Shown piece by piece: positions 5,813 to 54,081 of a stretch of DNA of 64,000 nucleotides. This stretch comes from Gemmatimonadota bacterium (GTDB lineage: Bacteria > Latescibacterota > UBA2968 > UBA8231). Position 1 is the stretch's first letter, and each line of letters begins with the position of its first letter. The notes below the pieces were generated by a model. The model saw only the letters and a program-made list of their open reading frames with translations. It had not been told where the DNA came from and did no database searches. The DNA is taken from assembly GCA_018673255.1 (NCBI GenBank), contig JABHDC010000074.1:1-64000 (forward strand), read 5' to 3'. The position numbers and the translations under genes are program-made.

Positions 5813-6662
5813 TGGTCGTCCCCTGACGGGCGCCGCGGCGGATCATCCGCAGCAGTTGATCTGCAGTGAAAGGGATCAGGCTTCCATCATCTGCCACCCC
5901 GGTGAGTACCGGATCTGCAAACCCCGGATCGGTCAGACTGACTTGCGTCCATCGCCACAGCGGATTCGTGTCGATCGCCTGTGGTATGTCGACTCCCGTT
6001 GCACTCACCAGCGTCGTGCCTGCACTCATCGCCTCCGAGGACAGTGTGCCGCCAGTACCGACCAGCATGCGATCCACGTGCTGGGCATCCGGCTGTGGTG
6101 TGACGACAAGTTGGGCGTGGCTTCCATCCGAACCCAGCAGATGCAGGGTGGTGTGCCAACCTCGCCTCGCGCCCAGCCGGTGCACGTTGAGTCGGGCTGA
6201 AGCGATAGGTGCAGCCAGGGCCATCTGAGCTTCCTGTGATGCTTCCCACAGAGTCCACCACGTCTGCATCAGGCCTGCGGCGCCGCCGCCACTCACGCGT
6301 CGGTAGAATACGCAGCTTCCGAAGGCTGGCCGTTGTCGCAGAGACAGCAGGCGTCGCCACTGTCCATCGTGCTGCCAGACTGGGTCATGACCCTTGGCCG
6401 CATTGGGGAGTGGCCCGGCAGCCAGAATCGGGATCTTGCCTGTCTGGCATCGGTGCACATCCTCGGCCAGGTTCGAGGACGGTGTCATCATCAGGACACC
6501 ATCGGTGTCAGACGTGATGGCTTGGTCCAGATTCGGGGCCCACGGCAGTTGGGAGGTCGGGCGTCGAGGTCGCCACACCAGGACCAGACCATCTACACAT
6601 TCACGGAGCTTTGTCACGACGCCCATCTGATGCGCCGCTGCAATGACGACGAGTCGTGTCAT
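5799..6662 (-). CDS. Unassigned 287-aa protein, degenerate Gfo/Idh/MocA-like
   Basis: I do not recognise a characterised family. The N-terminus (MTRLVVIAAAHQMG) resembles a Rossmann first strand but lacks GxGxxG. A later stretch, TPSSNLAEDVHRCQTGK followed by ILAAGPLP, has the spacing of the Gfo/Idh/MocA segment in which a TP..H signature precedes a GKHV..EKP loop. The catalytic EKP lysine is replaced here. It overlaps the upstream Gfo/Idh/MocA gene by ATGA (6659-6662), so the two are probably translationally coupled and may work together. The best inference is a diverged, possibly non-catalytic paralogue acting as a subunit or sugar-binding partner. Confidence 0.6.
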   Translation of the reverse strand: MTRLVVIAAAHQMGVVTKLRECVDGLVLVWRPRRPTSQLPWAPNLDQAITSDTDGVLMMTPSSNLAEDVHRCQTGKIPILAAGPLPNAAKGHDPVWQHDGQWRRLLSLRQRPAFGSCVFYRRVSGGGAAGLMQTWWTLWEASQEAQMALAAPIASARLNVHRLGARRGWHTTLHLLGSDGSHAQLVVTPQPDAQHVDRMLVGTGGTLSSEAMSAGTTLVSATGVDIPQAIDTNPLWRWTQVSLTDPGFADPVLTGVADDGSLIPFTADQLLRMIRRGARQGTTITLA

Positions 6663-7813
6663 TCTGATGACCCCCGTGTCAGGGGAAGAGTCACCTCTCG
6701 ACCCGTTGCCATGGACCTGTAACCGGCGAGGAGGATCTCCATGTTGTCGCGCGCATCCCTCACGCTGTATAGCGGGGGACGCTGGTTTTGGAGGGCATCG
6801 ATCAGATCATCCAGGCCGGTGGCCAGACCGGCTGGATCATCATCTATAGGGGGATGAAGGGCGGGCGCGCCCGTGGCCCAACCCATTGGATCGTTGGGGG
6901 ATGGAGGCGTCCCAAGATCGGCGACATCCTGTCCGAGGAAGGCCTGGACGGCCGGTCGCTTCGCATCGATCACGGCCGTCGCTTCGGATCCGACAAGCCA
7001 GGCGCGACTCGGGCCACCGGCCGGATGTGAGCCGAGTCCGACCCGTCCAGCACTGAGCGTGCCCAGCCGCCCCTCATCATCGATGAGTGTCAGTGCGGCG
7101 AAGTCGTCGGCACCTCGAGCCGCATGTTCGGGGAAGAAATGGGCCCCGCCTGTGCCGTGCACACGGGTGGCGGCCCCCAGGGCCGCCTGCAGCAATCCCA
7201 CGCTGTAGGAACCGATTGTGAGTAGTTCACGTTTCAGTTCGGGGTATTTCCAGGTGCCTTCGTCGGCTCCCAGAAATGGCAGGCATCTGTCGATGGTGCG
7301 TGGCATGCCCTTGGCGAAATGCAGATCGACGTGGCAACCCAGCAATTCCCCGAGGGCGCCAGACTCCAGAATGGGTCGTGCCTGGCGCAGCAGCGATCCA
7401 TAGGCATAGCTGGGTACGATGGCGGTCACACCGGCACGCTCGATGGCGTCGATGGCGGCGTCGTATTCCTCGAGGGTTGCTCCGAGGAATTTGTCGATCC
7501 ACAGGTGTTTGCCGGCATCGGCGCTTGCCTGGATCAGTTGGCTGCGTCGCTCGATATCGTGGGCAATGCTGACGATATCGACATCATCCCGCGCCAGAGC
7601 CTGATCGACGTCCGGGACATAAGGCACACCGAGCTGGTCGGCCCAGAGTCGGTTCAACTGGCGCAGATCTCCATCGATGGCCGTATCGTCATCGGCGATG
7701 GCCACGATGCGAGTCTGTGGGTGTTTCGCGTAGAGTGAGACGAAGTTGCGTTGATGAGAGTGGCGGCTGAAACTGAGCAGCAGCACGCCATAGGGATCTG
7801 TGGTGTCGGGCAT
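6659..7813 (-). CDS. Gfo/Idh/MocA family NAD(P)-dependent oxidoreductase
   Basis: A 384-aa cytosolic sugar or polyol dehydrogenase family protein. The N-terminal Rossmann domain has strands around LLLSFSRHSHQRNF and IVAIADDD. The Gfo/Idh middle signature is recognisable: DDVDIVSIAHDIE, then DAGKHLWIDKFLG, where DKF replaces the usual EKP but keeps the lysine. A C-terminal alpha/beta substrate domain follows. The ATG at 7813 is preferred over the upstream start at 7888 because it has a purine-rich leader, and the extra 25 residues would be basic and would cross a terminator hairpin. The gene is coupled to the degenerate paralogue downstream. The substrate cannot be inferred. Confidence 0.85.
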   Translation of the reverse strand: MPDTTDPYGVLLLSFSRHSHQRNFVSLYAKHPQTRIVAIADDDTAIDGDLRQLNRLWADQLGVPYVPDVDQALARDDVDIVSIAHDIERRSQLIQASADAGKHLWIDKFLGATLEEYDAAIDAIERAGVTAIVPSYAYGSLLRQARPILESGALGELLGCHVDLHFAKGMPRTIDRCLPFLGADEGTWKYPELKRELLTIGSYSVGLLQAALGAATRVHGTGGAHFFPEHAARGADDFAALTLIDDEGRLGTLSAGRVGLGSHPAGGPSRAWLVGSEATAVIDAKRPAVQAFLGQDVADLGTPPSPNDPMGWATGAPALHPPIDDDPAGLATGLDDLIDALQNQRPPLYSVRDARDNMEILLAGYRSMATGREVTLPLTRGSSE

Positions 7814-7835
7814 CGCCTGCTTCTTTCTGGGACGG

Positions 7836-7880
7836 ACATAAAAACGGCCCCGCCGGACTACAGTGTCACGTCGGGGCCGT
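7836..7880 (-). terminator. Intrinsic terminator after the coiled-coil gene
   Basis: A 9-bp perfect inverted repeat, ACGGCCCCG (7844-7852) and CGGGGCCGT (7872-7880), is followed in the minus direction by TTTTTATG. It lies between the coiled-coil gene and the oxidoreductase, so it should end the MamK-like transcription unit. Confidence 0.8.
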
Positions 7881-7931
7881 GGGCGCAAGCGGGGTGTCGT
7901 TGCCGCTGATGTTGATGAGATCGAGGAGGCG

Positions 7932-8468
7932 CTACCAGCGCGTCAGATTCCCCATGATCTTGTCGAGATCCTTCTGGAGTTCCTGCTTCTCATTCTCCAG
8001 TTCACCCACTCGGTCCTCACACTGCTGCACGGCCGAGGCCATCTCAGAGAGACGCTGCTCCAACTGCGCAGAGCGTTCGGCCAACTTGGAGTTCTGATCG
8101 GTGGTCTCGGCGCGCTGACGCTGCTTTTCGTCCAACTCCTGGCGCAGGGTCGTGATACGGACCTCGGTGTCACGAATCTTGCGCTCCGCCTCGTCCTGCA
8201 GTCGGCCTCCCTCTTCCTGCAGTTTCTGTTCCAGTCGTTTCCGCTCTTCTTCGAGGGCGCGCTCCTTCGACTGCAACTCATCCGCGAGTGTGGAGGTCTT
8301 CGACTCCATCTCCTGCATCTGCAGAGCCTGCTCTTCCGTCTTGTTCTCCGCTTCCTGGCGCTGACTGACCTCCATATCCAGCATCTGGTGCATGCGTGCG
8401 ATCTCGTCCCGTTGCCGGGTGAGTTCCGCTTTCAGCCGAGATGATGTCAGGAATGCAAGAATTCCCAT
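7932..8468 (-). CDS. Coiled-coil protein downstream of a MamK-like actin
   Basis: A 178-aa protein that is almost entirely predicted alpha-helical coiled coil: after a short N-terminus (MGILAFLTSSRLKAEL) the sequence is dominated by E, K, Q and R with regularly spaced leucines, for example in LEEERKRLEQKLQEE. It has no signal peptide or membrane span beyond the weak hydrophobic first seven residues, and no enzymatic motif. It follows the MamK-like gene with a 75-bp gap and is closed by an intrinsic terminator, so the two probably form a bicistronic unit. An inferred role is filament adaptor, crosslinker or cargo tether. No specific family can be named. Confidence 0.8.
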   Translation of the reverse strand: MGILAFLTSSRLKAELTRQRDEIARMHQMLDMEVSQRQEAENKTEEQALQMQEMESKTSTLADELQSKERALEEERKRLEQKLQEEGGRLQDEAERKIRDTEVRITTLRQELDEKQRQRAETTDQNSKLAERSAQLEQRLSEMASAVQQCEDRVGELENEKQELQKDLDKIMGNLTRW

Positions 8469-8543
8469 GGTTTCTCTACACTCCTGCCGCGATAGGGGCG
8501 AGGGCGACGCGAGAATCTGAGGGGCGCAGGAGGATATTCGTGA

Positions 8544-9620
8544 TCACTTGGCGATCACGTGGCGACGCCACTCTGACTCGGGCATATCTGTTGCCAACCG
8601 CAACGCCCCGTGCGCCCCGGCATATACCGGATCCTCGACACCACTGACTCGACATGGGCCGAATTCGGTGAGGTTGGAACGAATCTCCTCTGCCAGGCCG
8701 CGGATCTGAGATCCACCACCAGCCAACACGATGTTCTGCCGCAACTCATTCTGGAATTCGGAGTCAAAGCTGACGATCAACTCACGGGCGCTCTCGATCA
8801 TGTCGGTGAGGACACTCTCGCACGCCTCGCGCAATTCGTTGGTGACATCGTACGTCTTCGGCTTGCCCCCGACCTGAAAGTCGACGGCGATCACTTCCTT
8901 GTTCGAGGAGACGAAGGCATACTGCTCCTTGATCTTGCGTGCCATCTCAAGCGTGATCGGGGAGTCCTGCACCTTCTCCTGCAAGAGCATGTGGAATCGT
9001 GAATCGACGTAGTTGCCAGCCTTGATCAGCGTACGCTGATCCTCTTCACCGGGAATCGTTCCGTGCATACGGCACAGATCCAGCGTGCCGGCGCCGATAT
9101 CGATGATGAGGGCATTGTTGAACAGATCCAGGCCGTAGGCCACCAGGAAGGGCTCAGAGGCGACCATGGCGTGCGACACGAAGCCGCCGACCGCTTCGAC
9201 CAGAGCCTGGCGGTCTTCGGCAGAAGCACGGGCCGGGCAACCGATGACCGCCCGGATCTCCTGATTTGGATTCGCGTCGGCCAACTCGATGACATAAGAG
9301 ACAAGGTGCTGAATCGCCTCGGCTTCCCGGTCATCTTCGCCCTGTGGCTCTTCGTCGGGACGAGATCTGAAGACACCATGTTCCATGGGCCAGATCATGT
9401 CGACGGCCATGCGGTGTGCCAGACATTCGTCGCCGATGACGACCTGCTTCTGCAGGAACTTGTATGAAATCAGATCCTTCGGCCAACCGACCACACTCGT
9501 AACTGTTCGGCGGATGTCCGTGCTCGTCTCGATCGAGCTTTGTGACGTGCCGAGATCTAAGCCGACATAGAGAATGTCGCCGTCCTGGGAGGCAGCAGCC
9601 CCCGGACCATCAGCACTCAT
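8544..9620 (-). CDS. MamK-like bacterial actin (filament-forming ATPase)
   Basis: A 358-aa actin-fold ATPase. Phosphate-1 loop: GLDLGTSQSS (about 20-29). Phosphate-2: IDIGAGTLDL (about 173-182), with the aspartates needed for hydrolysis in this superfamily. Adenosine motif: AGGGSQIRGL (about 300-309). Beyond generic actin motifs, the segments VVGWPKDLI, VIGCPARAS, GTIPGEEDQ and KAGNYVDSR, and the DP..AG..GALRLA C-terminus, parallel magnetosome MamK more closely than MreB or ParM. The ATG at 9620 has GGAG 9 nt upstream; the start at 9671 has no ribosome-binding site. A strong promoter lies about 140 bp upstream and a coiled-coil gene follows. No other mam gene is visible, so cargo and function are unknown. 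Confidence 0.85.
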   Translation of the reverse strand: MSADGPGAAASQDGDILYVGLDLGTSQSSIETSTDIRRTVTSVVGWPKDLISYKFLQKQVVIGDECLAHRMAVDMIWPMEHGVFRSRPDEEPQGEDDREAEAIQHLVSYVIELADANPNQEIRAVIGCPARASAEDRQALVEAVGGFVSHAMVASEPFLVAYGLDLFNNALIIDIGAGTLDLCRMHGTIPGEEDQRTLIKAGNYVDSRFHMLLQEKVQDSPITLEMARKIKEQYAFVSSNKEVIAVDFQVGGKPKTYDVTNELREACESVLTDMIESARELIVSFDSEFQNELRQNIVLAGGGSQIRGLAEEIRSNLTEFGPCRVSGVEDPVYAGAHGALRLATDMPESEWRRHVIAK

Positions 9621-9760
9621 ATATGAAAACTCCGTTGTGAACGGGGATGGCGATGAACCACCGAGGCCCATCGTCGAGGTGTGAAAATGGCGATGTCGCT
9701 GCTGGAAGGGAGGCGATACGGAGCAACGACGATCCGACCTAAAGCTCTATTTTGCAGTCA

Positions 9761-9791
9761 AATATAAGCAGGCAGGGCCAGAATATGTCAA
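9761..9791 (-). promoter_or_regulatory. Sigma70-type promoter for the MamK-like operon
   Basis: On the minus strand a perfect TTGACA -35 (complement of 9786-9791) is followed after 18-19 bp by TTATAT/TATATT (complement of 9761-9767). It is the only strong promoter between the MamK-like gene and the convergently unrelated ABC operon upstream, giving a leader of about 135 nt. Confidence 0.65.
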
Positions 9792-9818: not shown

Positions 9819-10835
9819 TCACTCAGGCGTGGCGGAGGCCCCCCCTGAGGGCAGGTATCCGGTGGTGAAGCAACCCTCGGCTTCAACCTCGCCCGCTTCG
9901 ACGATTCCCGCCTCCACCATCTGATCGATGAGTTGTTGCCATCTCTCCAGACTCATCACTCCGATCTGAGCTGGGTGGAAGGCGTCTCCGGTGAGAACGA
10001 GATCCCGCGAGAGCCGGGCACCGATCTCTAGGATCTCCACGTCCATTCCTGGATTCAGGCCGTTGATGTGTTCGTTGGTTGCCGTGGCGGACTCCAGGTA
10101 GCGGGTCCAGCCCGTCTGCGCCGCGGCGACGATGGCTGCAACGGTTGCAGGCTCTGTCCGGATCTTCTCTTCGGTCGTGATCAGAACACTGGCATAGGGG
10201 TTGAAGCCTGTCTCGGAGACCAGCAGCGACCTGGGGGATGCCCCGAGTCGCTGAGCCACGATGGGCTCACTGAAGACGTATCCCTGCATGGCGTAGCGAA
10301 TATCGTCGATGAAGGGGATCACGGATCCGTGATAGGGAACGATCGTGACACCGGGGAAGTCGAATCGGTGCCGCAGGTAGTGAGAGAAAGCAGGTCGTTG
10401 TGACAGGGCCAGGGTCAGATTCTCAAGGTCCTGGATTTGCTTGATACCACTTTCCTCATGTACGAGGATGCAGCGGGGATTGATCTGATAGGGGGCGAAG
10501 ACGGCAACGATGGGCGCGCCCGCGGCACGCGCCGTGATCACACCATCGGCATTGGTGAGGCCGAAATCGACCTGGCCCGTGGCGACCCGCTGGATGACGG
10601 GGGCATCGGGGCCGCCGCCGAGGATCTCCACGTCGATTCCGGCAAGCTGGTAGTCACCGTGTACGGCGGCAGCGTAGTAGCCACCGTGTTCGGCCTCCGG
10701 GAACCAGTTGAGAGCCAGCTGCAGGGGGCGATCCGCCGGCTCCGGCGTGCCACAGGCGAGGATCGTAAAACCAAGCAACAGCAAGAGCACAGTAGATCGC
10801 ACGGTAGGTCGCAGAGGGGACTCCTGCGTTGGCAT
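9819..10835 (-). CDS. ABC transporter substrate-binding lipoprotein, NMT1/THI5 (ThiY/SsuA) type
   Basis: The 338-aa precursor has a hydrophobic signal (VLLLLLGFTILAC) ending in a lipobox cysteine, so it is probably lipid-anchored on the periplasmic side. The mature start LNWFPEAEHGGYY and the following VATGQVDFGLTNAD are hallmarks of the NMT1/ThiY group, which binds thiamine-pyrimidine precursors or related small ligands. The ATG at 10835 is used; the longer frame to 11120 lies inside the permease gene. It is the last gene of an ATPase-permease-SBP operon, with a 5-bp gap from the permease. The ligand is unassigned: HMP-like pyrimidines, sulfonates, or a deazapurine precursor given the queE overlap. 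Confidence 0.88.
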   Translation of the reverse strand: MPTQESPLRPTVRSTVLLLLLGFTILACGTPEPADRPLQLALNWFPEAEHGGYYAAAVHGDYQLAGIDVEILGGGPDAPVIQRVATGQVDFGLTNADGVITARAAGAPIVAVFAPYQINPRCILVHEESGIKQIQDLENLTLALSQRPAFSHYLRHRFDFPGVTIVPYHGSVIPFIDDIRYAMQGYVFSEPIVAQRLGASPRSLLVSETGFNPYASVLITTEEKIRTEPATVAAIVAAAQTGWTRYLESATATNEHINGLNPGMDVEILEIGARLSRDLVLTGDAFHPAQIGVMSLERWQQLIDQMVEAGIVEAGEVEAEGCFTTGYLPSGGASATPE

Positions 10836-10840
10836 GAGAC

Positions 10841-11650
10841 TCACTGGCCTGGGGCCCAACGGCGTAGCGCGAGGCGACTCAGGCCGCTCACGACGCCGAA
10901 GAACAGCAGGCCGAGACCTGTCGAGAAGAGAACGGTGGCGAACAGATAGGGTGTCTTCGTCTGTGAATTGGTGATCGTGATCAGGTAACCGAGTCCGTGA
11001 TCCTGCGTGCCGTATCCGGTGAAAAACTCGCCGACGATGGCGCCGATTACCGATAGACCGCAGGAGATCCGGGCCCCCGTGAGCATGGCGGGAACGGCGT
11101 GTGGCACCTGCAATTTCCACAGACGCTGCCAGCGACTGGCATTGTGCAGGGCAAACAGATCACGCAATGGTGTGGAGACACTCGTCAACCCGGCTGTGGT
11201 ATTGGCGATGATGGGGAACAGAGAAATGATGAAGGAAACAACCGTCACGCCCACCAGACCGTAGCCGATCCATAGCACGATCAGTGGGGCGATAGCCACG
11301 ATGGGTACCGTCTGAAGGAAGATGGCATATGGATACAGTGAGCGTTCGATCCACTCAGACTGCGAGAAGAAGACGGCGATGGTGAAACCGACTACGAGAC
11401 TCAGCAGGAATCCGCCGATGGCTGCCTGCGCGGTCAGCGTGGCGGCGTGCAGGAGACTGTCGAAGTGTTTGCCGATGGCGGCGGCCACGTGCCCCGGGCC
11501 TGGCAGGATGTAAGGTTGCAGACCAAGGATCTGAACCAGGCCATGCCACGCACCCACCACGAGCAGCAGGGTGCCTGATGGTGGCAGGATGACTTTCGTC
11601 CAGTGCAACCATCGGGAGGATGGACGTCTCGAATCGGTCACTTGGCTCAC
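10841..11650 (-). CDS. ABC transporter permease, SsuC/ThiX type
   Basis: A 269-aa inner-membrane permease of the nitrate/sulfonate/pyrimidine importer family. Hydrophobic segments are visible near 17-35, 75-95, 105-125, 130-150, 195-215 and 230-250. The cytoplasmic EAA-like loop that docks the ATPase falls around LRDLFALHNASRWQRLWKL (about 165-185), with IGAIVGEFFTG after it. It overlaps the ATPase stop by ATGA (11647-11650), indicating translational coupling. It would form a homodimeric channel with the ATPase and the downstream lipoprotein. Confidence 0.9.
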   Translation of the reverse strand: MSQVTDSRRPSSRWLHWTKVILPPSGTLLLVVGAWHGLVQILGLQPYILPGPGHVAAAIGKHFDSLLHAATLTAQAAIGGFLLSLVVGFTIAVFFSQSEWIERSLYPYAIFLQTVPIVAIAPLIVLWIGYGLVGVTVVSFIISLFPIIANTTAGLTSVSTPLRDLFALHNASRWQRLWKLQVPHAVPAMLTGARISCGLSVIGAIVGEFFTGYGTQDHGLGYLITITNSQTKTPYLFATVLFSTGLGLLFFGVVSGLSRLALRRWAPGQ

Positions 11651-19136: not shown

Positions 19137-20966
19137 GTGACCGATCAAGGGCAGCAGGTCACTCCCCAGCAGCTGCTTACGGTCCTGGCTGACCAGCTCA
19201 GCACAGGTGAAGCATTGCTGACGGAGCAGCACTTCGTCGATGCCCTCGCCAAGGTGGATGAGCAGCTGACAGGTGAGGCGCCGTCTGAGAGCAGACGCAG
19301 TGAACTTACCGGCCTCATTCGGGAGACGAATGAGAAGGATCCGACGATCCTGCTGGTGCCGGGCGTTGAGAATTGGATCGCACGTACCGTGCTGGCTCAA
19401 TTCCGCAAGGCGAACTGGGGTATCACCGAAGTGCAGGAGCGCGGCAATCAGGCCGTGCGCGATTTCGCCCACGGCCCTCAGGCGACCGCGTTGCTGGCGC
19501 AACTCGGCGTCGATGTCCGACAGGTCAACCAGCGCAATTGCCTGCGCTCGATCGTCAATACGATCAGTGGCCGCCATGACGATTCTCACCGCAATGCCGA
19601 GGCGCGACTGGCCCAACTGCAGGCTTCGATAGCGGCAGCTGCCCCCACAGAGGAAGGGGAGGATCACGAGCACCATCGTCGCGTGCTGTCAGATCTGCTT
19701 CTGGCCCCTGTAGAGGATCCCAGCGACGACGAGATCAACGATCGGCAGGCATCCCAGAAGCAGGAACGCAATGATCTGCGCAAGACGCAGATGACTGAGC
19801 TGGTTGCCAATCTGGAGAACTACGTCAAACTGGGTCGGATTTCGGCCGAAGATGCCGAAAAGATGAGCAAGGCACACCGTGTCGACGAAGCGATTCGACA
19901 GGGGAAAGTCGACAAGGAGAAGGGCAGCAAGATCCGCAACAGCGTGATGGACGGGACCGCCCGTGATCGAGTGGAGCGCAGTGTCAAAGAGGCTCTCGAT
20001 TACGCGGTCGTCTATCTGCAGGTTTTCCATTCACTGGGACGGATCGAGTCGCGTTTCGACCCCGCCCTCAAGTTCCTGATTCGGCACGGCACGGTGATTA
20101 ATGCCGATGCAGGGGACAAACAGACGGCAGAACTCGGCGATACCGTCCGCGCGCTGATCGAGGATATCGACGTCCTGCGTCTGCTCATCGATCTGATGGA
20201 CCGCAAGGACGCAGAGGTGCGTATGATCGGCGCCCGACTCCCACCCTACAGTCACATCGTGCGCCGGGATCAGGGACGGGTGGAGCGTGTGGCGGTCACG
20301 GAAGAATTCATCGATCAGTTGCGGCAGTTGAGTCCGGATGACCTTGCAGCGCAATTGCACTCGGGGGACAAGCGCGAGCGGGCTCGTCCTGCAGCAGCGA
20401 TGATCACGATGACCGTTCTGCTGGGACGGCTGATCAAGCCGACGCCCGTTCGCAAGGAGATTCGCCTTCTGAAGGTGAATCTGATCGTCGAGGAGTTCTA
20501 CCGATCGACTGACGATCTGGATCAGGCGCGAGGCCAGGCTCAGGAGTTCCTGCGAACGCGGCTCAAGAGTCTCTATCCTGACTTGAGTCAGGAGGAGACG
20601 GCTGCTATGCAGGAGCAGGGCGAGAGGATTCTGGCCGCAGTGGAAGAGAAGATCGTGGCCGAGTGTGCTGCTCGTGGTGAACTGCCCGGTGCGCCTGGTG
20701 GCGACGACGATGACGATGACGAGGCAGAAACCCTGGGCGCCGAAGAGAAGGGCATGGGTGTGCAGATTCATCGCATCAGCGTCCGTGTCGCCGGGTCATT
20801 TCGCCAGATACCGCAGAAGATCATGCCTGATCCTGAGGATGCCGAACGTTTCATCATCGTTCAGAAAGATCCCGAATCGGGCGAACTGGTACCCGCCAGA
20901 CGTCGCGGGGCCAAGCGCTACGTGATCAAGGGGCGTGAAGGCTGGGAGCTGGATGGAGGTAGCTGA
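19137..20966 (+). CDS. Unrecognised 609-aa cytoplasmic protein
   Basis: I cannot assign this protein to a family. It is rich in charged residues and predicted mostly helical, with no signal peptide or membrane segment. Residues about 200-290 look like coiled coil or helical bundle (QKQERNDLRKTQM onward), 300-520 form a larger helical region, and an acidic linker (DDDDDDEAE, about 523-531) precedes a small beta-rich C-terminal domain with VRVAGSFRQIPQ and IIVQKDPESGE. GTG 19137 follows GGAGG by 6 nt, so the start is secure. The AT-rich upstream region carries paired palindromes. The SDR gene downstream overlaps its end by 14 bp. No nuclease, kinase or ATPase motif was found. Confidence 0.75.
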   Translation: MTDQGQQVTPQQLLTVLADQLSTGEALLTEQHFVDALAKVDEQLTGEAPSESRRSELTGLIRETNEKDPTILLVPGVENWIARTVLAQFRKANWGITEVQERGNQAVRDFAHGPQATALLAQLGVDVRQVNQRNCLRSIVNTISGRHDDSHRNAEARLAQLQASIAAAAPTEEGEDHEHHRRVLSDLLLAPVEDPSDDEINDRQASQKQERNDLRKTQMTELVANLENYVKLGRISAEDAEKMSKAHRVDEAIRQGKVDKEKGSKIRNSVMDGTARDRVERSVKEALDYAVVYLQVFHSLGRIESRFDPALKFLIRHGTVINADAGDKQTAELGDTVRALIEDIDVLRLLIDLMDRKDAEVRMIGARLPPYSHIVRRDQGRVERVAVTEEFIDQLRQLSPDDLAAQLHSGDKRERARPAAAMITMTVLLGRLIKPTPVRKEIRLLKVNLIVEEFYRSTDDLDQARGQAQEFLRTRLKSLYPDLSQEETAAMQEQGERILAAVEEKIVAECAARGELPGAPGGDDDDDDEAETLGAEEKGMGVQIHRISVRVAGSFRQIPQKIMPDPEDAERFIIVQKDPESGELVPARRRGAKRYVIKGREGWELDGGS

Positions 20967-44976: not shown

Positions 44977-45963
44977 TCATCCGTAGAGATCTTCTGAGTC
45001 AGGGTCGATCTCGTCCAGGAGTTTGGCGGCTCGCTTGCGCCCGGACAGTCCGGGACGAGCCAGGTACTTGGGGCGCCCGCCGACAAACAGGACGGAGGGT
45101 TCATCCTTCTGCGTATCGAGCGTGACGACGTCACCTTCCTGCAGTTGGGCGATCTCGTTCAATGAAAGGGCGCCGCGAGCCACCTGCAGGTGAACGGGGA
45201 TCTTCATCTTGCCCAGCGCCCGCCGCTGTTGGTCCACCTGAGCGCGGTCCACCTGCCGATTGCGGTTCCCCGGTTTGGGCGAGAGTTGGTCGGCCAACGG
45301 TTCGAGGCTGCCAAGAGGGTAACAGAGGTGAACCAGACCAGTCGCCGAGCGTGTGTTGGCCTCAAAGGCGACGATGAAACAGCCATCTCCCGGTGCGGCA
45401 ATCTGGATGAACTCGGGATTGGCCTCAAGGGTGACCTCAGCGATCTCCACGCGTCCCACCGGTTCCCAGGTCGCCTCCAGATCCGCGAAAATCCTGCTTG
45501 CGAGCTTGTTGATGATGTTCATCTCGATCTGCGTCAGTCCGCGGTCATCCCCACCGGTGAATGAGCGGCCCTGCCCCCCAAAGGCACGATCGATGATGGC
45601 CATGACCAGATCGTTGGCGAGAGAGAGAATGGCCTGTCCGCCGTGGGGCCCCATGACAAAGCTGTAGGCAGTGCCGGGGCTCGGCAGGGAGACGATGAAC
45701 TCGTTGTAGACCAGTTGATCGCAGAATGCGAGATCAACATCCACCACCTGGCGCATGTTGCTGGAAATCGTCGCCGCCAGGAGGCGGGCGAACTGCTCAT
45801 GGACGCTCTCCATGCGCCGCGCCTGGTCCTTGTTGACCTGTTGCGGGCGGCGGAAGTCATATGACATGGCCGCACCACCGGACACCCTGGTGGCCGGTGA
45901 TTTTGAGGCGCGTGCTGCAGAGATCAGTTCGTGAAGTTCGTCGTCGCTGAGTTCGTCTGGCAT
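44977..45963 (-). CDS. fliM: Flagellar motor switch protein FliM
   Basis: FliM forms the C-ring and binds CheY-P. The 328-aa protein starts at ATG 45963, giving the N-terminus DELSDDELHELI, which matches the LSQDEIDALL CheY-P-binding motif. The middle domain includes SYDFRRPQQVNKDQARRME and LPSPGTAYSFVMGPHGG, and the C-terminal SpoA domain runs about 245-320 (IPVHLQVARGALSLNEI). It stands apart from other rod, hook or export genes. A 14-bp palindrome lies upstream between fliM and fliS. Confidence 0.94.
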   Translation of the reverse strand: MPDELSDDELHELISAARASKSPATRVSGGAAMSYDFRRPQQVNKDQARRMESVHEQFARLLAATISSNMRQVVDVDLAFCDQLVYNEFIVSLPSPGTAYSFVMGPHGGQAILSLANDLVMAIIDRAFGGQGRSFTGGDDRGLTQIEMNIINKLASRIFADLEATWEPVGRVEIAEVTLEANPEFIQIAAPGDGCFIVAFEANTRSATGLVHLCYPLGSLEPLADQLSPKPGNRNRQVDRAQVDQQRRALGKMKIPVHLQVARGALSLNEIAQLQEGDVVTLDTQKDEPSVLFVGGRPKYLARPGLSGRKRAAKLLDEIDPDSEDLYG

Positions 45964-46048
45964 GGCGCCTAATATAACGACGTTCGCCAGGATTGGCCCT
46001 GAATGTGATTTAGTGCTGGAGAATGTGGCCATTCAGCCGATGATATTA

Positions 46049-48248: not shown

Positions 48249-49472
48249 CTAGAGGAAACTGAACAAGCGTGCGACGCGATCCATGATCCCTGAGCGAGGG
48301 CTGTGGGTATCGATAGACGGGGCGCCAAAATCTGCCGGTGTTTCCGTGGCGAAGCGCAGCAGACCGATGGCCGTGGTGAAGCGGGGATCCTGAACTGGCT
48401 CGGCAGCAACGACATCGGTGGCGACACCGAGTCTGACTGGGAGGCCGAGGGTTTCTTCCCCGAGGCTCTCCACGTTGCGCAACAGCGCGCCACCACCGCT
48501 GAAGATGAGCCCTGCTGCCAGGAGATGGCCATGACCGCTGCGCTCGATCTCTTCACCAACGAATTCGAAGATCTCCTGCTGGCGCGCCTCGATAATCTCG
48601 TCCACCTGCTGGCGCAGAATGGTGTGTGAGCGGCCGGAGGTCGTGTTGAACGTCACTGTGTCCTCGCGCTCATCATCCGCATCGACACAGACCCCACCGT
48701 GCTCGCATTTGAGTTGCTCTGCTTCACGAGGCGAGATGTTGAGTACCAGCGAGAGGTCGCGTGTGATGTCCTGTCCACCGAAGGGGATCTCGGCCATGTG
48801 ACGCAGGGTGCCATGGAACAGGGCCAGGTCGGTCGTTCCCGCACCCAGATCGACGACGCCCACACCCATTTCGCGCTCGTCCGTGCTCAACAGGGCTGAG
48901 GCGGCAGCCACACTCTCGATGAAGAAACCTGCAATCCCCACGCCCGCCTCCTCTGCGGCACGTTGCAGGGTGGTGCAGGCATGGTTGGACGCAGTGGCGC
49001 TCAGGGTCTGGACTTCGAGTTTCTGACCGTGGAGCCAGAGTGGATTCTGGACAGATTCGCCATCTACGGCGTAGCTCTGAACAAAGCGGTGCAGGACCAT
49101 GGCGTCTGCGGGGGGGGCGGCCTGCTCGGCCGATGCCAGCGCCCGCTGCACATCCCGTTCGTCGATGGGCTCAGACGAACCGGAAATCGCGACCACGCTG
49201 CGACTGGTGTGGGCACTCACCTCTGAGCCGGCGATACCGACATAGGCGCCGGTAATACGCAGGCCGGCGGCACGTTCGGCTTCGCCGACGGCCAGGCGAA
49301 TCGATTCAACCACCTTAGGCATGTCGATGATGGCGCTGCGGCGGATGCCGCGGCAGACAGACTCGCCCACGCCGAGGATCTTCAGATCACCAGTCGTTTC
49401 AGATTCGCCGACGAGACACTGAATCTTTGATGCACCAATATCGAGAACGACAACGGGAGAAGGAGAGGACAT
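48249..49472 (-). CDS. ftsA: Cell division protein FtsA
   Basis: An actin-fold protein that tethers FtsZ to the membrane. VVVLDIGASKIQCLVGE, GVVDLGAGTTDLALFHG and the GGQDITRDLS segment are typical of FtsA, as is the 1C subdomain between about 85 and 160. GLIFSGGGALLRN is the adenosine motif. The C-terminus ends in an amphipathic helix (SGIMDRVARLFSFL), the expected membrane anchor. Start ATG 49472 is used. ftsZ, ftsQ and mur genes, the usual neighbours, are absent; it stands as a single gene with its own promoter. Confidence 0.9.
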   Translation of the reverse strand: MSSPSPVVVLDIGASKIQCLVGESETTGDLKILGVGESVCRGIRRSAIIDMPKVVESIRLAVGEAERAAGLRITGAYVGIAGSEVSAHTSRSVVAISGSSEPIDERDVQRALASAEQAAPPADAMVLHRFVQSYAVDGESVQNPLWLHGQKLEVQTLSATASNHACTTLQRAAEEAGVGIAGFFIESVAAASALLSTDEREMGVGVVDLGAGTTDLALFHGTLRHMAEIPFGGQDITRDLSLVLNISPREAEQLKCEHGGVCVDADDEREDTVTFNTTSGRSHTILRQQVDEIIEARQQEIFEFVGEEIERSGHGHLLAAGLIFSGGGALLRNVESLGEETLGLPVRLGVATDVVAAEPVQDPRFTTAIGLLRFATETPADFGAPSIDTHSPRSGIMDRVARLFSFL

Positions 49473-49798
49473 GTTGTGGCAACCCCTGATTTCATGAGCG
49501 TGACGCGACACAAATGTGCACTGCGTCGACATGGTCAACAGAGGACGGGGCGATGGTCATCGATAACGACGACACGACCGCTGGGGTTGCGTGAGGAGGG
49601 ATGTGCCGGGCTTCAGCTGTCACAAATGGCTCGAACGGGGAGTGCGAACCGGGAAATCGACGACGGGATTGCGACCTTCACCCAACAGCTTCTGAAGGAT
49701 AGCCAGCACCCTATGCCACGTCAAGTAAATTCACTGCTGGAAACCACTTACGCGTGTTCTGGCGATGGTGGTCTGGCTGTGTTCTGGGTGTCTGACCC
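49473..49798. other. 326-bp region upstream of ftsA
   Basis: Between ftsA and the response regulator, both minus strand. It contains a promoter at 49696-49724 and no gene I can support. Confidence 0.5.
49696..49724 (-). promoter_or_regulatory. Sigma70-type promoter for ftsA
   Basis: On the minus strand TTGACG (complement of 49719-49724), a 17-bp spacer and TATCCT (complement of 49696-49701). It predicts an untranslated leader of about 220 nt, long for a single gene. Confidence 0.55.
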
Positions 49799-52137: not shown

Positions 52138-54081
52138 TCAGCGCAGGGTGCCCGTATCGAAGGGCAGATCCTCGAGATCCTCTTCGGCCTCTTCGAAGGT
52201 GGGTAGTTCCTCTTCCTCGACTTCATCTTCGACGACGGCGTTGATCTTCCAGTCGGCTGAGAGCCCTTCCAAGTCGGCATTGCTCAGTTTCTCACTGACC
52301 TCGTAGGGGCGAAAGACCAACTCTTCGTTGACTCGATAGATCTTGCTCTTCCAGTGGAAGAGGGTGCCGTCGAGGACGAAGACGACCTTCGATTGCTCCT
52401 TGTCCTTGTTCAGCACGGCATTGTTGATGATCGCCAGCAGATCACCAATCGGTTCGCCCGAGGCACCGATGTCGCCCTGGTGCGGTTTGTCCTGTGGTCC
52501 GATGATGATGGAAATCTTCGGTTCACGCCCTTTGAATCGCACACTCTCGGGAATGAATTCTTCCATGTAGGGGCGTGTGAAGGTCTCGTACGGGTAGAAG
52601 AGGTTTGTGACGACGGCGTAGAGCCAATCTCCCATCCTTTCATCCCGAATGCGCAACTGCGTGCCGATCTTGATCAGCATCCGGCCTTCAGGCAGCAGGT
52701 GCTCTCGCACGGCCCGTAGGTCGACATCCGTGATCTCCACGTCCTTGCCGCCCAGTTCAATGCTAAAAGTGCCTTTGCTCGCACTGTTGAGCTGATGGAC
52801 CTTGGTGCCCAGTAGGTGGCGGAACTTCCCGGTCTGCGCGTAGGGCAGGTCGACCATGAACTTGTAGAGGACACTGCGATCCAGCAGCAGGCCCTCCTTC
52901 TGCAGGTTCGTCGTTCCCGCTTGCCGGAACACATCGCGCATGTAGTTGAGTTCTTCCTGCGTGACCACGACCCCCGGGCCACCGATCCGATTGGCCACGG
53001 TCTTGGATACTTCGAGCAGGCCCTGATGCGAGATCGTGGGGTATTTCGACCACTGGGTCAGAGTCGCTTCATCAAATTCGAGCCCCTCTTTCCAGACGAA
53101 ATACACCTTACCGGCGGAAGAAAAGATGAATGTGCCTCGATTCACCGGGATCGGTCTGCCGCCCTCCTTGGCGGACCGTTGGATCAGCGTCTCAAGAGGG
53201 AAGCGTTCGAAATGGGTCCGCAACTGGAAGAGGGCTTCCAGATCTGTGAGAGGGCCCTTGTGCGGCAACTGATAGTCTTCGAGCATCAGGCCGACCAGCG
53301 CACCGCTACGGCTGATGACGAGTGCGCCCTTCTCTACCATCCGCTGATTCTCGGCTGATGCGTCAAAGAGGACGTCCTCCTTGACCAGCTCGAAACTGGC
53401 AGGGATGTCGATGAGATTCTGCAGGTATTTCTGAGCTGTCGTTTCCGTGACCGGCAATACCTGAGGGTTGCCAGTCAATTCCCGGCGCAGGGGGAGCGAG
53501 AGCGTGTCGAGCAGGTAAGCGTTCGGGTGTCCACCGACGCTGGTGAACAGGCTGCCCTTGCGCAGCTTTACGGCAAAGCCGCGCCCCTGGTGCAGGATTT
53601 CATCCTTGTAGATCTGGGTTCCCATGGGTAGATAGATCGCCTGCGTTGCGCGCAGCTTGCGGGCGCAGATCTCTTTCAGTGTCCGTCGACCGACTTCCGT
53701 CAACTGGTCGATGAGCAGACACTTCACGCCCAGTAGTTGGCTGACCAGGAGTGTACCGTTGGGTAGTTCGTCAGGGATCGGACGAGGTCGGCCCGTGGGT
53801 GGATTGATCAGGGGATCCATATCCACGGCGGGGACGATAAAGTCGTTGAGGATGTCTTTCTGCTGCTGCCGTAGTTGCTTACGGCTTACGGCTGTCGAGC
53901 TGCGACGGCGCCCGGAAGGGCGGCGTTTTCCTCGCAGGATCTTGACGAGAAAGAGCGCGGCAATCATCGCGACGAAGATGCCGAGGAACGTGAGAGCGCC
54001 TGTCGGTAACCCCGAGGAGCCCTCCTGATTAAAGCCGAGGTAGGTACCGCCAGCGGTCTGCGCGAGAATCGTCAGCATCAA
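52138..54081 (-). CDS. Unrecognised 647-aa membrane-anchored protein
   Basis: One membrane segment near the N-terminus (about 28-47, FLGIFVAMIAALFLVKIL) is followed by a basic stretch (RGKRRPSGRRRSS) that predicts the large C-terminal part is cytoplasmic. The rest is mixed alpha/beta with no catalytic motif I recognise; the C-terminus is strongly acidic (DEVEEEELPTFEEAEEDLEDL). It is the first gene of a pair with the beta-barrel gene and divergent from ssb. No homologue can be named by eye. Confidence 0.65.
   Translation of the reverse strand: MMLTILAQTAGGTYLGFNQEGSSGLPTGALTFLGIFVAMIAALFLVKILRGKRRPSGRRRSSTAVSRKQLRQQQKDILNDFIVPAVDMDPLINPPTGRPRPIPDELPNGTLLVSQLLGVKCLLIDQLTEVGRRTLKEICARKLRATQAIYLPMGTQIYKDEILHQGRGFAVKLRKGSLFTSVGGHPNAYLLDTLSLPLRRELTGNPQVLPVTETTAQKYLQNLIDIPASFELVKEDVLFDASAENQRMVEKGALVISRSGALVGLMLEDYQLPHKGPLTDLEALFQLRTHFERFPLETLIQRSAKEGGRPIPVNRGTFIFSSAGKVYFVWKEGLEFDEATLTQWSKYPTISHQGLLEVSKTVANRIGGPGVVVTQEELNYMRDVFRQAGTTNLQKEGLLLDRSVLYKFMVDLPYAQTGKFRHLLGTKVHQLNSASKGTFSIELGGKDVEITDVDLRAVREHLLPEGRMLIKIGTQLRIRDERMGDWLYAVVTNLFYPYETFTRPYMEEFIPESVRFKGREPKISIIIGPQDKPHQGDIGASGEPIGDLLAIINNAVLNKDKEQSKVVFVLDGTLFHWKSKIYRVNEELVFRPYEVSEKLSNADLEGLSADWKINAVVEDEVEEEELPTFEEAEEDLEDLPFDTGTLR

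Follow-up and report, generated by a model that had tools for sequence, protein, structure and literature searches.

MamK relatives in bacteria without magnetosomes have already been published, in the form of BeeR, Bbp and counts from metagenomes (PMC11929497, PMC10580974, PMC7449369). BeeR of the Verrucomicrobiota (PDB 8r2n) is a MamK-related actin whose filament is reported as being three-stranded (PMC11929497), and Bbp of giant bacteria is a MamK-like actin, most of whose carriers are reported to be without magnetosomes, encoded in a small gene cluster of its own beside a hypothetical protein and a Kelch-domain protein (PMC10580974). The metagenome survey records 2798 MamK-affiliated sequences, with 227 left after a check of their scaffolds for other Mam proteins (PMC7449369). 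On the magnetosome side, the chain-organization network of RS-1 brings together MamK, Mad28 and the coiled-coil proteins Mad20, Mad23, Mad25 and Mad26 within a magnetosome cluster (PMC12748827).

The locus considered here lies in a window of 64,000 nucleotides (contig JABHDC010000074.1, positions 1 to 64,000) and comprises two adjacent minus-strand genes, one for an actin of the MamK subfamily and one for a coiled-coil protein. With the MamK of the structures 5ljv, 5ljw and 5jyg this actin shares 42–44% identity in the structural match, the fold, the model score and the nucleotide-binding motifs; unlike it, the window actin has a coiled-coil partner of its own, belongs to a clade separate from the sampled Magnetococcales MamK and has relatives in which the tested magnetosome genes were not found. 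It resembles the RS-1 network in being a MamK actin accompanied by a coiled-coil protein; the RS-1 system is reported with several partners, whereas the window has a lone pair (PMC12748827). BeeR, the fourth structural match of the window actin, is similar in kind but only 30% identical, and the BeeR model scores the window actin at 205.7 bits against a cut-off of 530. The genes beside Bbp are likewise of other kinds than those at this locus. In open-licence PMC full text we found neither a report of the partner family or of the actin–partner pair, nor an association of MamK with flagella outside magnetotactic bacteria; both the partner family and the flagellar link presented below appear to be new.

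The actin and its coiled-coil partner

The actin gene (8544..9620, minus strand) runs from an ATG at 9620 to a stop at 8544 and encodes 358 residues. An in-frame start further upstream, at 9671, would yield a protein of 375 residues; we prefer 9620 because GGAG precedes it and because the actin ATGs of three relatives (L001, L007 and L016) fall at the same aligned place. The preliminary description, made from the sequence alone, had recognized an actin-like ATPase of this length with its nucleotide motifs, and these are indeed present as DLGTS, IIDIGAGTLDL and LAGGGSQIRGL. Its MamK-like identity is also borne out by the NCBIfam model NF040964: at 415.3 bits the window actin clears the cut-off of 400, as do the actins of seven of eight relatives, the eighth being frameshifted. 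The MreB models (NF010539, 48.7 vs. 293; TIGR00904, 36.8 vs. 365.75), the DnaK model for Hsp70 (14.8 vs. 648) and ParM_N (15.9 vs. 27.4) all remain below their cut-offs, while the protein is recovered by the broader Pfam families MreB_Mbl, Salactin and Actin. No ParM-type arrangement, in which a DNA-binding adaptor sits beside a ParM-like actin, was found at the locus, where the partner reaches no family cut-off.

Structural comparisons point in the same direction. A sequence search of the PDB returned the MamK entries 5ljw and 5jyg as the best solved relatives, and an AlphaFold2 model of the actin (pLDDT 91, from an alignment of 75 rows) has as its top Foldseek match the MamK filament 5ljv (TM 0.88/0.96, rmsd 1.7, 44% identity). 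On alignment with 5ljw, its residues E143 and D161, which we take to be ATPase residues, correspond to E156 and D174 of the window actin. We further built a FastTree phylogeny of 130 sequences with six MreB as the outgroup, leaving out eight entries shorter than 330 residues from P0001–P0120; magnetosome MamK was represented by seven Magnetococcales loci and one bin labelled Gammaproteobacteria. The window actin falls in a clade of 49 of these 130 sequences (support 0.91), sister (joint support 0.989) to a second clade of 35 sequences (support 1.0), Latescibacterota sequences among them, with the sampled Magnetococcales MamK outside this pair and MreB well separated. The phylogeny, which had been proposed as a check on the earlier reading, along with the model scores, confirms the actin as a member of the MamK subfamily that falls inside neither MreB nor Hsp70. 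Judging by its sequence and fold, it most likely polymerizes with ATP into MamK-like double-stranded filaments.

The partner gene (7932..8468, minus strand; 178 residues) lies downstream of the actin after a gap of exactly 75 bp (8469–8543), as originally described, and is delineated by adjacency, a profile family, periodicity and a predicted helix. Over residues 20–170 its hydrophobicity repeats with a period of 3.55 residues, unmatched in 1000 shuffles; taken by halves, the periodicity is significant in the second (0.003) but not in the first (0.142). The predicted fold is a single long helix, with a pLDDT below 50 for the first ~11 residues. Strong conservation is concentrated at the two ends, FLT.SR..E.TRQRDEIAR.HQ at the N-terminus and [KR]IMGNL..W at the C-terminus, with a variable stalk between them. 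A membrane helix was considered for the N-end, but the hydrophobic moment there is low (0.24); it is higher at the C-end (0.53), yet reaches 0.63 within the stalk, so that these values are not diagnostic. When 5.8 billion proteins were searched with a profile of the partner and the 7993 candidates sharing most words were scored, at least 39 clusters were recovered, with no Pfam domain in any, and the protein length ranges from 149 to 327 residues across the 25 of the 39 found clusters that have both ends. The partner is, in short, a discrete protein family, well conserved at both termini and variable in the length of the stalk that joins them.

Such a combination of conserved termini and a freely varying stalk points to a linker, and it is on this basis that we propose a two-ended rod: the partner would most likely form a coiled coil of ~26 nm (178 residues × 0.15 nm) that would meet the filament at one of its conserved ends and a membrane or cargo at the opposite one. 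A single-chain model of the actin with the partner was poor (mean pLDDT 63.6, pTM 0.35), its actin part being too poor for contacts to be read. Of the interpretation first advanced for this pair, the MamK identity, the conserved pairing and the absence of the tested magnetosome genes from relatives stand, while an organelle-like cargo and the binding of the partner to the actin remain putative.

The pairing itself is well conserved. We found 16 loci, nine of which have a window-type actin; in all eight relatives with downstream sequence the coiled-coil gene is the next after the actin (46–85% identity), while the ninth locus, L016, ends inside the actin. The unconserved neighbor that would have spoken against a dedicated pair was not what we encountered. 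In a lake MAG (L008:8001-9639) both actin and partner are frameshifted, which may be a sequencing error or else decay. These close relatives are MAGs, and we extended the comparison to a phylum set of 64 genomes, which we infer to be Latescibacterota. The partner profile matches nine of the 64: the eight with a window-type actin and G063, where all that is left between intact syntenic neighbors is the C-terminal 70 residues of the partner and some 35 residues of the actin (locus L067, on G063:C53). This shows joint decay of actin and partner in one relative. In another genome, G066, a contig breaks off at a fragment of the actin, so that this genome is uninformative about the partner. Both genes are under strong purifying selection among the window, L001 and L007, with dN/dS of 0.03–0.06 at a dS near saturation; for more distant pairs the ratio is up to 0.27 or not estimable.

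Transcription signals and neighboring genes

Upstream of the pair, on the minus strand, a promoter (9761..9791) is visible in both sequence and conservation, with TTGACA at 9791–9786 and TATATT at 9766–9761. The characterization of this promoter as near-perfect was overstated, given a spacer of 19 nt, which also places it outside the 16–18 nt range of a generic scan that reported none; conservation nevertheless supports the promoter, which together with the next 20–30 bp has barely changed in L001 and L007, where the remaining leader has diverged. The promoter is partly kept in L016, and TTGACA recurs upstream of the actin gene in L016 and L002–L006. Just past the −10 element lies GCAAAATAGAGCTTTAGG (9755–9738, minus strand), a stretch retained by L001 and L007 and, for the most part, by L016 despite divergence in the rest of the leader, and a possible regulatory site.

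The intrinsic terminator that had been noted after the pair is present as a GC-rich stem-loop followed by TTTTT (7840..7880, minus strand). It was missed by the generic scan, whose loop limit was 8 nt, but folds in the window sequence and is conserved in L001 and L007. It was not recognized in L005, whose next gene begins close behind the pair, and no hairpin with a T-tail was detected in L002–L004, L006 and L008. The arrangement in L005 implies that the pair forms a separate transcription unit only in the nearest relatives; the idea of a self-contained unit holds in that a conserved pair has its own promoter and terminator in L001 and L007, and fails as a general rule in L005.

The next gene downstream (6659..7888, minus strand; Pfam) encodes an oxidoreductase of the Gfo/Idh/MocA family and is found downstream in all eight relatives at a variable distance; it is probably a syntenic neighbor and not part of the two-gene unit. 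Upstream, an NMT1/THI5-like substrate-binding protein (9819..11120, minus strand; Pfam) is a syntenic neighbor only: its gene lies beside the locus in L001, L007, L016 and L067, and was not found in the available stretches of L002–L006 and L008, some of which reach only a little way upstream. Elsewhere in the window, the ORFs at 19137–20966 (609 residues) and 52138–54081 (647 residues) have no Pfam match at E 1e-5.

Magnetosome genes, flagella and a second MamK clade

We surveyed the genomes of the eight relatives (L001–L008), rather than the window's own genome, for MamM, MamQ and the magnetochrome domain. MamM over its cut-off was found in none of the eight, five of which yield generic matches of the cation-efflux type, none above 129.6 bits, and the magnetochrome domain (MCR) was likewise found in none, while both of two Magnetococcales control genomes were positive for MamM and magnetochrome. 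MamQ had no match in three of the eight and only short matches of 23–32 bits in the other five, as against 455 bits in its one positive-control genome. In the phylum set magnetochrome was found in 0 of the 64 genomes, in a search without a positive control of its own. In these relatives, then, no magnetosome system was detected for the tested genes, nor the magnetosome cluster that would mark a functional magnetosome MamK, in agreement with the preliminary description, which had envisaged no canonical magnetosome.

The window also carries fliM (44977–46032) and ftsA (48249–49538), a sign that flagella and a distinct division actin are probably both present in this organism. Across the phylum set, in which genome completeness is unrecorded, FliM was present in all 13 genomes with MamK vs. 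15 of the 51 without it; when only genomes of at least 4 Mb are considered, the corresponding counts are 13/13 and 8/34. FlhF follows the same trend (11/13 vs. 12/51). FliM was scored in 28 of the 64 genomes, or 29 if G063 is counted, whose weak partial matches (37.5 and 33.2 bits) exceed the Pfam cut-off of 27 but were scored as absent. Several genomes of the phylum have multiple FliM matches (seven in G007).

On an rpoB tree of 60 of the 64 genomes (G003, G014, G021 and G036 being without a usable rpoB), about eight separate FliM losses can be read by eye in the superclade that bears MamK, and intact MamK occurs in none of the superclade lineages that lost FliM. Models of dependent evolution of the two traits are preferred on the whole tree (p 0.0004 with 2 df, 0.003 with 4 df) and within the superclade (p 0.00003 and 0.0003), with some fitted rates at their bounds. 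In these first models the MamK fragment of G066 was scored as present, while in the Fisher tables it was scored as absent; in stricter runs two of three trees were built without G066, while the third, limited to genomes of at least 4 Mb, counted its MamK as absent, and the p-values are 0.016 (G066 dropped), 0.012 (genomes of at least 4 Mb) and 0.023 (FlhF). The MamK–flagella link thus survives tree correction moderately. Six flagellated superclade genomes (G038, G050, G051, G055, G062 and G065) are without intact MamK, so MamK is not required for flagella and the link is one-way. The possibility that MamK replaces FlhF in flagellar placement was considered and rejected, as FlhF is over its cut-off in 11 of the 13 MamK genomes.

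Five further genomes of the phylum (G028, G029, G035, G036 and G037) have MamK without the coiled-coil partner. Four of these sequences, L049 having been left out of the tree, are placed in the second clade by phylogeny, and G028 was assigned by its neighbors. In all five (loci L045–L049) a gene for a TPR protein adjoins MamK. A ParB_N/HTH_ParB gene follows MamK in L048 by Pfam and in L045 by eye; L046 ends before this position, and the neighbor is not confirmed in L047 and L049. This group is possibly another MamK-based positioning cassette. A pseudouridine-synthase-like gene, recognized by eye, lies nearby in L045, L047 and L048. The TPR protein was also considered as a partner shared by both MamK clades and discarded, the other 11 genomes searched having only generic TPR matches of at most ~80 bits.

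Possible roles of the actin–partner pair

We favor a role in organizing motility or sensing machinery. Specifically, in bacteria related to Latescibacterota with no detectable magnetosome system, the pair would constitute a two-gene system of a MamK-type filament and a dedicated coiled-coil linker, probably organizing something for motile cells, a reading to which we give about an even chance. We propose a job in motility because MamK of this phylum is seen only in lineages that keep their flagella; more tentatively, the system might anchor or distribute cargo related to swimming, for instance the flagellar pole or arrays of chemoreceptors. In Magnetospirillum AMB-1, binding of MamK to an MCP-like receptor has been reported (PMC7175107).

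Other readings have to be set against this one. The pair might serve a general mechanical or shape-related role without any particular cargo, as in BeeR tubules or Bbp; the coiled coil would then bundle the filaments, as sticky-ended coiled coils are able to do. Such a role also fits the reported occurrence of BeeR in Verrucomicrobiota and Bbp in giant bacteria as MamK relatives where magnetosomes are lacking (PMC11929497, PMC10580974). Yet the window actin scores far under the BeeR cut-off, and a shape role by itself would not predict the absence of MamK wherever flagella were lost; we regard it as possible but not probable. Still less probable is DNA segregation or the positioning of bacterial microcompartments. 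The ParB-like gene that follows MamK in the readable loci of the sister clade would fit the former, but the window pair is flanked by genes for an oxidoreductase and a transporter component instead of one for a DNA-binding protein. Shell genes of microcompartments are present in 57 of the 64 phylum genomes, with up to 16 matches per genome, but they are equally common in near relatives without intact MamK (14, 11 and 14 matches in G063, G064 and G065). Since shell genes do not track MamK, the microcompartment is not favored as the cargo; the shell was the only unrelated family compared with MamK, and is too common for a good control.

The least probable account, which we consider very unlikely, is that the pair was orphaned when a magnetosome system was lost, or that it belongs to a variant of such a system that escaped detection. 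It could draw on the membership of the actin in the MamK subfamily, on the putative magnetosome clusters reported for Latescibacteria (PMC7449369, PMC4818849), on the flagellar link, which would fit magnetotaxis, and on MamB, MamE, MamI, MamO and MamA, which lie outside the set of genes surveyed separately. Against it stand the absence of MamM over its cut-off and of magnetochrome from all eight relatives with both controls positive, MamQ matches of at most 32 bits in those genomes, the absence of magnetochrome throughout the phylum set and the grouping of the actin apart from Magnetococcales MamK.

The favored role in motility or sensing also admits of a wider formulation, which we consider unlikely at present: MamK would not have arisen solely as a magnetosome component, and in Latescibacterota it would be a motility-linked cytoskeleton with interchangeable partners, serving to place the flagellar or chemosensory machinery and disappearing with the flagella, the magnetosome MamK being one recruitment from it. 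The partners would be the two-ended coiled-coil linker in one clade and the TPR protein with its ParB-like neighbor in the other. At the level of the pair itself, the conserved partner gives MamK a defined companion outside magnetosomes, with two conserved terminal motifs. Should the flagellar link prove real, it might help to account for the excess of MamK-like sequences over magnetosome clusters in metagenomes, and the origin of the magnetosome skeleton would become testable.
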